64,000 nucleotides of DNA from Pseudofrankia sp. DC12 (lineage in GTDB: Bacteria > Actinomycetota > Actinomycetes > Frankiales > Frankiaceae). The position numbers and the translations under genes were made by a program. Positions 19,235-64,000 of this stretch are shown one piece after another. The notes under the pieces were generated by a model. The model saw nothing but the letters and a program-made list of their open reading frames with translations. It ran no database searches and was not told where the DNA came from. Numbering within the stretch: the first letter of the stretch is position 1; each line of letters starts with the position of its first letter. Where the stretch lies: NCBI RefSeq assembly GCF_000966285.1, contig NZ_KQ031391.1, forward strand, positions 3,507,208 through 3,571,207, written 5' to 3'.

Positions 19235-19505
19235 CGGTACCCACCCACGAAGCCGGCCCATCTCGACGTCGTCCGCGGCGAACGACCTAGTCGGCGAGCG
19301 GCCTCAGCCGGTGCAGCAGCCTCAAGCGGTACGCGACCGCAATGGGCGAGCGCCAAGCGATGCCAGCCACGAAGCCAACCCGCCCATCTCCACCGTCGTC
19401 CGCGGCGAACGACCCTAGTCGGCGAGCGGCCTTGGCCGGTGCGGCAGCCTCAGGCGGTACGCGACCTCAGCCGGCGGGCGCCCAAGCGAGACCCGGCCAC
19501 GAAGC
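19210..19505 (+). repeat. Imperfect tandem repeat of about 127 bp
   Basis: Two near-complete units run from about 19244 to 19497, with partial units at each end. Landmarks recur in order: CCACGAAGCC (19247, 19369, 19498), CGTCGTCCGCGGCGA (19210, 19267, 19394), and TAGTCGGCGAGCGGCC followed by GCAGCCTCA.GCGGTACGCGACC (19288 and 19416). The first partial unit is the end of the gene at 18971. The units have no coding bias of their own. Confidence 0.75.
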
Positions 19506-19560
19506 CAACCCAGTACGGCCTCGGCTCCCGATTTCCACGTCCCGATCGATAGGCGTTCGC

Positions 19561-19628
19561 AGGGCGCCCTAGCGCCCGACGGGCGGTCGGCCAGCGGGCG
19601 CTCCGCGCCCGTTCTGGCCGACCGCCGC
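19561..19628 (+). repeat. Dispersed two-hairpin element, copy A
   Basis: The copy starts AGGGCGCCCTAGCGCCC, a short hairpin, then has a second inverted repeat (GCGGGCGCTCCGCGCCCG) and ends TTCTGGCCGACCGCCG. The same plan recurs at 36927-36995 and 42085-42166, always on the plus strand and between genes. Confidence 0.75.
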
Positions 19629-21866: not shown

Positions 21867-24111
<2,245 letters not shown>

Positions 24112-24650
24112 CGAGTCCGGATCTCCGCTCTGAGTTCGCGACTTGAATCCTGTTGTGGTTCGTTGCCTGCTTCGGATCGGGTTCGGCGAGCCGCGGGTGG
24201 CGCGCGTCCTGCCGCCCTGGCTGTGCCCGGCCGGCCAGTCTCGCCGAAAACGGCGTCCGCCGGCCATCCCTCCATCCAACTCTTCTCGACGGACCTTCGC
24301 CCTCAAGGCGGCGTGGAGAAAGCCCTCACCGCGCCGAGGTGTCGTAGCTCACATCGGGGCGAAGCCGGTAGGAGCCGGAAAACGGTCCGGTCACGTCCCA
24401 GCGGAGGTCGCCGCCGCTCACTGCCGCGTCGTGGGCTCGCGGTCCGTGCCGCGGTGCCCGGATCGGGCGGTGGCGTGGTGCCAGGATCGGGCTCATGGCC
24501 GCCCGCGAACCCGCCCCCGCCGGGGCACCGGACACGTACGTCGAGGCCCCGGCCGCCGGCGTCGCGCCGCCCCGTTCCGCGGAACGCGGAGATCACCGCG
24601 GCCGGGGCCTGGACAGGCATGACGACGTTCCTGACCACGATGGCGCCGAT
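24112..24650. other. Divergent region between citA and pdxH
   Basis: Some 540 bases hold the promoters of citA (minus) and pdxH (plus). Open frames reach in from pdxH (to 24495) but the residues before 24651 are Pro/Ala/Arg-rich and unlike PdxH. No other gene is supported. Confidence 0.4.
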
Positions 24651-36782: not shown

Positions 36783-36926
36783 CCACCTTCAGGCCAGGCC
36801 GAGTTTCCAAGGTCATTGCCAGATCGGTTGCATAGTTCCGACCGGACCGGCAAAACCAGCCGACATGCCGGCCCTTGACCAGCGCTGATCGCCGGACTTC
36901 TTCGCCGGCCCCGTACCACATCGGGG

Positions 36927-36995
36927 AGGGCGCTCAGCGCCCGGACCAGGCGGAGCGGGCGGCGGGCGCTCCGCGCCCGTTCCGGCCGATCGCCG
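36927..36995 (+). repeat. Dispersed two-hairpin element, copy B
   Basis: The first hairpin GGGCGCT-C-AGCGCCC is perfect; the second is CGGGCGCTCCGCGCCCG. The copy ends TTCCGGCCGATCGCCG, the same as copy C. It lies between the isomerase-family gene and purF, upstream of purF. Confidence 0.75.
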
Positions 36996-41849: not shown

Positions 41850-42084
41850 GCCTGGAACCCTACGGCGGGCACCGGGCCCGCCGCGCTCGGGCGCGAGGCG
41901 CCCCTGCCGCACTTGGCCTCGTGTTGAACCGACGTTCTGGCCCAGGCCCAGCGACGTCCATCGAACCAGCCGCCCCGTGCTGACCGGCGACTCAAAAGTG
42001 TGAACCAGCCACGAAACCGGCCGGGATGATGACCGGCTGCAATTTCCATGTCATGAGACGACGAAGATGACAACGAAGATTGGG
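41850..42084. other. Upstream region of vdh with homology to copy A surroundings
   Basis: No gene is seen. Bases 42005-42055 (AGCCACGAAACCGG ... CAATTTCCATGTC) resemble the sequence before copy A (GGCCACGAAGCC ... CGATTTCCACGTC, 19494-19542), so the dispersed element may be longer than its hairpins. Confidence 0.45.
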
Positions 42085-42166
42085 AGGGCGCTAAGCGCCC
42101 GACAGGCGGAGCCAGGTTCCTGCCGGATCGAGCGATGCGCGCAAGCGCCGGTTCCGGCCGATCGCC
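42085..42166 (+). repeat. Dispersed two-hairpin element, copy C
   Basis: AGGGCGCTAAGCGCCCGACAGGCGGAGC opens this copy, with a perfect seven-base-pair first stem. The middle is longer and diverged from copies A and B, but the end, GTTCCGGCCGATCGCCG, is identical to copy B. It lies between vdh and the gene at 42219. Confidence 0.7.
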
Positions 42167-61882: not shown

Positions 61883-62250
61883 CAGTTGGGGTCGCACTAG
61901 GCGAGGGCGGCCCGGCATGAAGTAGCTACTTAGGACGCCTCCGTCGCCCGGCCTGGCCAAGGGCCCGGCCGGACTGGCCCGGCGCAGCAGTTCGGCCCGT
62001 GGTCTCGCCTGACGCCGTCCGTGGCCGGGGACACGTCAGGCCGTGATCGCCGTCTTGTTGCGCCACGAACTCGAAGGGAGACGCCGATCTGAGGTAGACG
62101 GTGATCTTTTGGAGGGGTGCTGCACGGGAGATGGAGGTTGGCCCTCCGTGATCGCCATGCGGGTGGTGGTCACAAACCGCCGTCAGCGGCGTCAGCCGAA
62201 CAGCTGGGGTCGTGAGCGTGACGGAAAAGGCGCGGCGGTGATCGTGTCAG
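61883..62250. other. Spacer between xylA and the intron, with unlike composition
   Basis: No gene is supported. The word CGTGATCGCC occurs twice (about 62043 and 62148), and the region near 62055-62120 (CTCGAAGGGAGACGCCGATCTGAGGTAGACGG in part) is lower in GC than the flanks. It may be the trace of another mobile element or the intron's 5' part if my start at 62251 is wrong. Confidence 0.4.
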
Positions 62251-62613
62251 GTGTGGGCCGGGAAGGCGAGCGCGAGCGAACCACCGTTGAAGTGTCGAAA
62301 AGATGTGGATGGCGTCAGAACCGGGGCAGTGAAACGGCTTCGGGATGAGTCTGGGGGTTACCCGTCTACTGCCCAGACGGCGTCCGGCATGCAGGTGGCG
62401 CGAGCCCGGTCCGGGCTTCCGTGTGGAACGTGGGAACTTTCCGTATGCCACGTCTCGCGTCGAGTATGGCGTGGGTGAGGGAGAACTCCAAGCGGCGGAA
62501 TCCGTGAGGACAGAGTACCGAAGGTGGAAACGGAAGGGGCGGACCGCCTCGTAGTAGCGCGGAGACTCCTGTAATGGGGGTGGAGCGAAGGGGGCGGGCT
62601 GTCCGGTGACAAT

Positions 62614-63921
62614 GTGTCGGTCAACCGTTGGATGCGGGAGGAGCCGGTCGGCGTGTCACAGCCGAAACCGTTTGACATTGACAAGCGGCTGTTCGTGGAG
62701 GCTTTTGGGAGAGTCCGGGCCAACAAGGGTGCGGCGGGAGTCGACGGGACGTCGATCGCCACGTTCGAGAGCAGGCTTAAAGACAACCTGTACAAGACGT
62801 GGAATCGGATGTCGTCGGGTACCTACTTCCCGTCGCCGTTGCGTGAGGTGGTGATACCGAAGCCGGAGGGTGGCTCGCGCGTGTTGGCGGTGCCGACCGT
62901 GGCGGATCGGGTCGCGCAGACGGTGGCCGTGCTGGTCCTGGACCCGCGAGTGGAGCCGATGTTCCATCGGGACTCCTACGGGTACCGGCCAGGGCGCTCG
63001 CCGCTGGACGCGGTCGCGGCCGCACGTACGCGGTGCTGGAAGAACGACTGGGTCATCGACCTGGATATTCGGGCGTTCTTCGACAGCGTGCCGTGGGATA
63101 AGCTGATGGCGGCGGTGCACCGGCACCTCGACTGGGATACCCGATGGGTCGGGCTGTATGTGGAGCGCTGGCTGAGGGCTCCCCTGGTCCGAGCGGACGG
63201 GACCCGGGAAGAACGGACACGGGGATGCCCGCAGGGGTCGCCTGTGTCACCATTGCTGGCTAACATCTATCTTCACTATGCGTTCGACACCTGGATGATC
63301 CGGGAATTTCCGGGTGTCCTGTTCGAGCGGTTCAGTGACGATGTGGTCGTGCACTGCACCAGCGAGCAGCAGGCTCGCAGGGTGCTGGCGGATATACGCG
63401 GCCGGCTGGCGGAATGTGGCTTGGAACTGAACGAGTCCAAGACCCAGGTCGTTTACTGCGCGGACGACGGACGGAGGAAACCCTGGGACGGGCCGACGGG
63501 CTTCGACTTCCTTGGGTACACGTTCCATGCCCGGACGGTTCGCCGCCGGGACGGGGCACTGTTCGTCGGTTTCACTCCCGCGATCAGCGACAGGAATGCC
63601 AAACGGCTACGCCGCCAGATACGCCGGTGGAGGTTGCATCGGCGCACGGCCGGGACTCTCCAGGACCTGGCAGCGAGAATCAATCCGCTGATCAGGGGTT
63701 GGATCAACTACTACGGTGCGTTTACACCGTCTCGGTTGGCTCCGACCCTCCGCCTGATCGACGCCTACCTGGCGCGATGGCTGCAACGCAAATACAGGCG
63801 GTTCCGACGGCGGTGGCGCCGGTCGCTACGGTTCCTCGCGGAGGTACGTCGCCGCGACCCGGGACTGTTCGCGCACTGGCAGCAACCGCTGGCGGTCGGT
63901 AGGACAGCACGAGCCGGATGA
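62614..63921 (+). CDS. ltrA: Group II intron reverse transcriptase/maturase
   Basis: The 435-residue protein starts at GTG 62614. It has RT motifs 'RANKGAAGVDG' (RT-0/1), 'LREVVIPKPEGGSRVLAVPTVADRVAQ' (RT-2), 'GYRPGRSPLDAV', 'VIDLDIRAFFDSVPWDKLM' with the first catalytic Asp, 'GCPQGSPVSPLLANIYLHY', the active site 'ERFSDDVVVHC' (FSDD in place of the common YADD) and 'FDFLGYTF'. The maturase domain X follows ('INPLIRGWINYYGAF'). The C-terminus is very basic with no HNH endonuclease domain. The stop codon lies inside domain V, so the end of the gene also serves the intron RNA. Confidence 0.95.
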   Translation: MSVNRWMREEPVGVSQPKPFDIDKRLFVEAFGRVRANKGAAGVDGTSIATFESRLKDNLYKTWNRMSSGTYFPSPLREVVIPKPEGGSRVLAVPTVADRVAQTVAVLVLDPRVEPMFHRDSYGYRPGRSPLDAVAAARTRCWKNDWVIDLDIRAFFDSVPWDKLMAAVHRHLDWDTRWVGLYVERWLRAPLVRADGTREERTRGCPQGSPVSPLLANIYLHYAFDTWMIREFPGVLFERFSDDVVVHCTSEQQARRVLADIRGRLAECGLELNESKTQVVYCADDGRRKPWDGPTGFDFLGYTFHARTVRRRDGALFVGFTPAISDRNAKRLRRQIRRWRLHRRTAGTLQDLAARINPLIRGWINYYGAFTPSRLAPTLRLIDAYLARWLQRKYRRFRRRWRRSLRFLAEVRRRDPGLFAHWQQPLAVGRTARAG

Positions 63922-63944
63922 GTCGAGAGGCTCACGTCCGGATC
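63911..63944 (+). ncRNA. Group II intron domain V
   Basis: GAGCCGGA and TCCGGATC form the lower stem, with the AGC catalytic triad at positions 2-4. TGAGTC-GAGA-GGCTCA forms the upper stem with a GNRA tetraloop, and CG is the two-base bulge. This 34-base element is the catalytic core of the ribozyme. The usual G-U pair at the triad is replaced by an apparent G-A opposition. Confidence 0.85.
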
Positions 63945-64000
63945 TGTGGGGGCCGGCGGGTGAGACTCCCGCCGGCTACCCGGCACTCTCGACCGGTCAC

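Follow-up and report, generated by a model that had tools for sequence, protein, structure and literature searches.

The window (the whole 64-kb stretch of DNA that was analysed) contains a dispersed two-hairpin element, which raises the question of what kind of repeat this is and what it might do beside the genes that it adjoins. A preliminary description had reported at least three copies (A, B and C), all in the same orientation and between genes. All three were confirmed with R1, a covariance model of both hairpins whose training set of 29 copies includes A and B and excludes C: copy B scored 87.3 bits (36915-36994), copy A 66.4 bits (19549-19626) and copy C 38.9 bits (42073-42166), each on the minus strand, and the next-best match in the window, at 22.6 bits, is a palindromic echo of copy A. 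The sense strand of the element is the minus strand of the window in all three. The preliminary description had recognised the two hairpins but missed this opposite reading direction and the full length of 150-230 nt with the tail; the roughly 50 bases of weaker similarity that it had noted upstream of A and C are that tail. The parts of the three copies are listed below in the sense direction of the element (H1, first hairpin; H2, second hairpin; R2, a covariance model of H2 and tail).

19582-19626, minus strand: copy A, H1, a long stem with a nested GGGCGC..GCGCCC apex (sequence; R1 66.4 bits)
19562-19577, minus strand: copy A, H2 (sequence; R1 match)
19490-19561, minus strand: copy A, tail, approximate limits (alignment with other copies; R2 match G000:C1:3526687-3526788)
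36949-36994, minus strand: copy B, H1, upstream of a purF-like gene (sequence; R1 87.3 bits; orthologous copy in Frankia sp. AgB1.9)
36928-36942, minus strand: copy B, H2 (sequence; zero-mismatch pattern match)
36850-36927, minus strand: copy B, tail, approximate limits (R2 match G000:C1:3544051-3544153)
42105-42166, minus strand: copy C, H1, interrupted (sequence; R1 38.9 bits)
42114-42129, minus strand: copy C, about 16 extra nt within H1, resembling a second palindromic repeat family (16-nt gap against AgB1.9 stretch L267; similar words in nested repeats elsewhere)
42086-42100, minus strand: copy C, H2 (sequence; zero-mismatch pattern match)
42010-42085, minus strand: copy C, tail, approximate limits (common to copy A)

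The anatomy was derived from an alignment of 28-32 copies. The long hairpin H1 has about 12-16 stem pairs, an internal loop with GAA on one side and a nested apex such as GGGCGC-GGA-GCGCCC; it is followed by H2 (GGGCGCTNAGCGCCC), by TCCCCAACGTGGTTCGGGG and by a tail of 70-130 nt, which in many copies carries a GTCCAGGGTCGGGA-like box. H1 and H2 together measure about 80 nt and the whole element about 150-230 nt, and the inserts at clean empty sites are 175-230 nt long. On its 5′ side the element has a sharp edge; its 3′ limit and the tail coordinates are approximate. As had been described, a second inverted repeat is present in A and B and is not clean in C, because copy C contains the extra nucleotides at 42114-42129, which are absent from its orthologue in Frankia sp. 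AgB1.9.

A genome-wide search with a covariance model, proposed in the preliminary description together with the warning that the family might have no further copies, gave 109 R1 matches at E<=0.01 (97 at E<=0.001) in the host genome, a single contig of 6,884,336 bases (G000); the 109 include an antisense echo (1855275+ over 1855243-) and count one interrupted element twice (1994963 and 1994876). At E<=0.001 R2 gave 123 matches, of which R1 misses about 29. The pattern GGGCGCTNAGCGCCC with at most one mismatch occurs at 182 genome sites, compared to 5 for a reversed control, both strands giving the same sites since the pattern is its own complement. Among 31 genomes, R1 at E<=0.001 had matches in seven of the eight of the genus and in none of the 23 others. 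The six further genomes of the genus with matches hold 43 (G001, 8,815,781 bases), 49 (G002, Frankia sp. AgB1.9), 14, 1 (G004), 14 and 3 (G006), and the eighth, G007, lacks the element at this threshold. Likewise, at E<=1e-4 in 35 Frankiaceae, the element was found in 6/8 of the genus and in 0/27 from six other genera. The family is so far specific to one genus of Frankia-like soil bacteria, probably Pseudofrankia. Copy B had no match in plasmid and phage collections. Two copies stand in tandem, 93 nt apart (4528367 and 4528460, within G000:C1 4528367-4528538), and G000:C1 4697934-4699184 contains a gene end that is duplicated and carries degenerate elements.

The most distinctive property of the family is its position. 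Based on gene calls from a purpose-written codon-usage script rather than a published gene finder, 81 of the 109 copies follow a gene of their own strand, whereas the lengths of element-free gaps predict 36%; orientation bias was one of the checks that the preliminary description had proposed. In 45 of these 81 copies H1, measured from model position 1, starts -1 to +4 nt from the stop codon (0 to 3 nt in 43), whereas uniform placement predicts 2.4 and the maximum in 20,000 simulation runs was 11. On the opposite side, measured from the end of H2 with the tail between, 0/109 copies lie 0-3 nt from the next gene. Among the relatives' copies with listed places (36/43 in G001, 32/49 in G002), 17/20 same-strand copies are stop-adjacent in G001 (-6 to +1) and 14/17 in G002 (-4 to +2). 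Gaps between convergent genes contain 39 of the copies, and those between divergent genes only 8, though the latter comprise far more sequence; tandem gaps hold 42 sense copies compared to 20 antisense. TGA, TAG and TAA stops all occur before the element. The start of H1 at stop codons, found in about half of the same-strand copies, had been missed by the preliminary description, as had the covariation of the stems and the restriction to one genus.

A general habit of the genome to place stems at stops was considered and rejected: 238 element-free gene ends have 7 stems at 0-4 nt, compared to 3.7 after shuffling. The remaining 36/81 same-strand copies are not stop-adjacent, and 28/109 copies lie behind an opposite-strand gene. 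None of the window copies is stop-adjacent: A, from the first group, lies 364 nt away from the stop that precedes it, and B and C, from the second, stand in front of opposite-strand genes. The PurF-like protein encoded in the window shares 94% identity with its counterpart in Frankia sp. AgB1.9.

We give about an even chance to the reading that this is a genus-specific non-coding REP/MITE-like family, retained mainly at gene 3′ ends as an mRNA 3′-end structure. The element would have spread through the chromosome by some copy mechanism and been kept mainly at gene 3′ ends, with H1 beginning, in the predicted sense transcript, at the stop codon or a few nucleotides beyond. Because of this start, a very stable stem would fold directly behind the terminating ribosome, and since H1 begins inside the ribosome footprint its folding would compete with the last ribosome. 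Its likeliest job would be that of a barrier to 3′ exonucleases and/or of an I-shaped (U-less) terminator. Several findings speak against a 3′-end role. Besides the copies behind opposite-strand genes and those away from stops, a U-run is lacking: among the 80 copies with a recognisable H2 (29/109 being left out), only 5 have at least three T in the 8 nt after H2, and 14 have at least three T between H1 and H2. Moreover, stems are no weaker in opposite-strand than in same-strand copies (mean energy -44.4 and -46.4 kcal/mol, p=0.24).

The second line of evidence concerns the stem of H1. Compensatory changes, whose counting had been suggested at the outset, are abundant both in A3, a model-built, structure-fitted alignment of 114 matches (112 distinct), and in A2, a sequence-only alignment of 29 copies that is not structure-fitted. 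In A3, 96.5% of cells are paired, both partners have changed in 17/21 pairs, and compensatory cells number 194, compared to 36.8 in shuffles and 30-48 with partners slid; in A2 the counts are 34 and 7.0. Orthologous copies point in the same direction. In 49 comparisons, several of which compare the wrong apex (for example copies 30, 50, 92, 93 and 103), the flanks are 90.5% identical and the H1 arms 73.7%, the arms being less conserved than the flanks in 42/49; about 12 pairs form within each copy and 9.8 when arms are crossed. Fifty further comparisons were dropped: 26 had one flank, 13 lacked an apex, 5 were duplicates, 3 lacked a stem, 2 were short and 1 was not collinear. The preliminary description had made its case depend on stems better conserved than their flanks: this holds for pairing but not for the stem sequence. 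Copy 70 has three different stems, of 16, 16 and 14 pairs, in three species, and G003, G004 and G006 also carry some sequence-unrelated stems at stop codons, one of them AT-rich. Since pairing persists and the place at the stop codon is retained while the sequence changes, H1 is a shape kept at an address. Together, these observations suggest a mobile repeat that now marks gene ends and whose H1 keeps its shape while its sequence changes.

The paired changes could also be mutational. Template switching in the quasi-palindrome would copy one arm onto the other, leaving stems perfect yet fast-changing, an account of the covariation alone that may be compatible with every other reading; we consider it distinctly possible, if somewhat short of probable. 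It fits the faster divergence of arms that are still paired, and the measured stems, 71/141 of which are perfect and which comprise 114 distinct arm sequences. Selection on a sense transcript predicts more G-U than A-C mismatches, and the counts disagree, which keeps templating a live rival: 38 v 9 in the structure-fitted alignment, a favourable count that leans on the fitting, 8 v 1 in A2 with one pair left out, 19 v 11 (p=0.20) with a neutral stem finder, where an excess of G-U is not clear, and 3 v 6 with a strict filter. Templating does not account for the GAA/C internal loop, whose conserved unpaired positions persist in most copies, and leaves stop adjacency and orientation unexplained. 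Moreover, some orthologues have switched apex type: in copies 6, 29 and 36 H2 is kept and the H1 type differs, which looks like replacement.

Comparison with close relatives indicates that the element moves or is lost, because some of them have no element at the same place. Collinear empty sites were found for copy 39 (against AgB1.9) and for copies 62, 77 and C (against G001). Copy 59 is present in AgB1.9 and absent from G001, which retains a few nucleotides resembling the element start, so that its absence there looks like loss. Orthologous sites were scored present/absent as 27/18 in G001 and 19/8 in G002, counts biased to 'present' by the use of stretches centred on the relatives' own copies and with many 'absent' rows that are partial gaps in hairpins actually there. 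Of the two signs of transposition that the preliminary description had proposed to look for, neither was seen. The empty-site junctions read by eye showed no target-site duplication, the 3′ end of the element being undefined, and a Y1/RAYT transposase (PF01797, the only transposase class searched) was found in 0/7 element-bearing genomes of the genus. The same search was positive in Escherichia coli and four other control genomes, and the sole genome of the genus with PF01797 is G007, which lacks the element at E<=0.001.

We also considered H1 as an independent mobile unit and rejected this: among 22 R2-only matches (of about 29; 20 stretches), many have an H1 into which a second palindromic repeat has come, and others a degenerate or wholly different stem. 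This second repeat (approximately ACCTCCCAGATCGGCTTCGCCGATCCGGCAGGGACCCC, in some cases multiplied) recurs at one and the same point of H1, directly following the apex (own-genome stretches L335, L336, L338-L341, L349, L353, L354, L356, L358-L362, L364, L367, L369, L375 and L377), and the nucleotides 42114-42129 of copy C look like a remnant of it. It also occurs in other GC-rich contexts, for example L355 and L371-L373, and its core pattern with up to two mismatches matches 38 places over the two strands, compared to 0 for a reversed control.

The main alternative to a 3′-end role is a selfish element with a site preference and no host function, whose transposase would recognise the folded hairpin and insert at short T-A/T-R sites, most of which are stop codons and -10 boxes when a genome is GC-rich. 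We regard it as possible but rather unlikely. TAA and TAG are commoner at element-bearing stops (39/69) than at other stops (75/238; Fisher p=0.0002), and 9/28 opposite-strand copies have TA no more than 5 nt from the foot, compared to 2.5 expected. Several of the latter stand 11-21 nt from a start codon beside a TAnnnT box, distances measured from a foot derived by folding, which is unreliable where helices extend into the flank or have two registers. The empty sites in relatives and the nesting of the second palindromic repeat in H1 also fit this alternative. Target sequence as the sole cause of stop adjacency was nevertheless rejected, with the TA preference remaining, because stop trinucleotides are not enriched before non-stop copies (2/36 compared to 1.7 expected, and 3/28 compared to 2.3). 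Furthermore, the empty sites read show no target duplication, no transposase of the class searched is linked, and old orthologous copies are still paired, although pairing would be of no use to a selfish copy that is dead. The TAnnnT (-10-like) box adjoins the foot in own copies 58, 10, 19 and C and in opposite-strand copies of the relatives; behind opposite-strand genes the element lies as if replacing the -35 region in promoters of leaderless or short-leader transcripts.

A bolder reading seems unlikely to us. In it H1 would be a sequence-free, shape-only module beside the stop, whose arms rewrite each other faster than the neighbouring DNA changes, by templating and/or selection; it would act as a translation-coupled gene-end switch that folds only after the last ribosome leaves, and a mobile element using a novel type of mobiliser would carry it between genes. 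Finally, a host terminator family arising in place at each gene without mobility would explain the 3′-end position and orientation and the many orthologous positions common to relatives, but is very improbable given that apex, H2 and tail sequence are common to unrelated genes, that relatives show clean absences, that tandem copies exist and that a U-tract is lacking.

How does the family compare with known systems? Integron attC sites are palindromes kept as structure and placed after stop codons, with GTTRRRY and RYYYAAC core sites. The present element resembles them in structure and position, whereas its copies are scattered over the chromosome rather than in arrays and the core words are nearly absent (RYYYAAC 0/109, GTTRRRY 1/109). 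MIRU and other MITE-like repeats are non-coding, dispersed and located at gene junctions. These traits are shared by the element, which also has MITE-like empty sites with collinear flanks in relatives, the likeness being one of description; it differs in its covarying structure and in that target duplication was not seen. Terminal inverted repeats were not seen by eye in the empty-site junctions either, the 3′ end being undefined. MIRU is named in the accessible text of PMC2267715.

The nearest known kind is the REP families. According to the accessible text of PMC3733652, REPs comprise GTAG and CGTC superfamilies of dispersed intergenic palindromes located mostly downstream of genes; the termini of GTAG REPs often provide a TAG stop, CGTC REPs have no dedicated transposase, and the phyla given do not include Actinobacteria. 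Contact with the stop and absence of a transposase therefore each have a precedent there. The preliminary description had likened the element to REP or MITE-like repeats, and as a high-copy dispersed intergenic two-hairpin element, mostly downstream of genes and plausibly transcribed, it bears this out. However, REPs measure 20-40 bp compared to about 80 nt for H1 and H2 plus a tail, the foot reads GTAG in 6/109 copies and CGTC in 0/109, the element is preceded by all three stops, and no Y1/RAYT gene was found in the genomes that carry it. With these tags rare or absent and no such transposase found, the family is REP-like and not a classical REP. Ribosomes are reported to stall at E. coli REPs that lie no more than 15 nt from a stop codon (Liang et al. 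2015, as cited in PMC12306157). Both have a stable hairpin just past the stop, which could plausibly influence how translation terminates and what becomes of the mRNA; sequence and architecture are unrelated, and the spacing of the present element is much tighter. U-less (I-shaped) stems at 3′ ends have been described in Streptomyces clavuligerus (PMC8269248), and here too a strong GC stem without a U-tract stands at the gene end of a GC-rich actinobacterium; in the accessible text of that paper these stems are not presented as members of a dispersed family that share sequence and a tail.

In agreement with the preliminary description, the element could be assigned to no named family. Rfam 15 gave no gathering-score match at copies A, B and C and no plausible match for eight copies with flanks up to E=1. 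The lone match for those eight, Guanidine-II, was discarded because it lies below the cut-off (E=0.67) and outside the hairpins. Searches of the open-access literature on Frankia, PMC2770080 among it, returned no account of the element.

How mRNAs are ended or protected without U-tract terminators in GC-rich actinobacteria is poorly known, and the family offers many natural hairpins that stand at a fixed address, the stop codon, and vary freely in sequence. Because close relatives differ in whether a given gene has the element, its effect on gene ends is directly testable. Moreover, the family is a candidate for studying REP-like dispersal without RAYT and for measuring how fast palindrome arms rewrite each other.

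Two further loci of the window were noted. On its plus strand, Rfam group-II-D1D4-2 (95.4 bits, 62133-62252) and Intron_gpII (50.7 bits, 63909-63984) enclose a 435-aa open frame (62614-63921); judged by these matches, this is a group II intron, and the frame is probably its maturase gene. On the minus strand, 23014-24306 is a citrate synthase gene (PF00285, E=5e-89), adjoined by an Aminotran_5 gene at 21867-23030.
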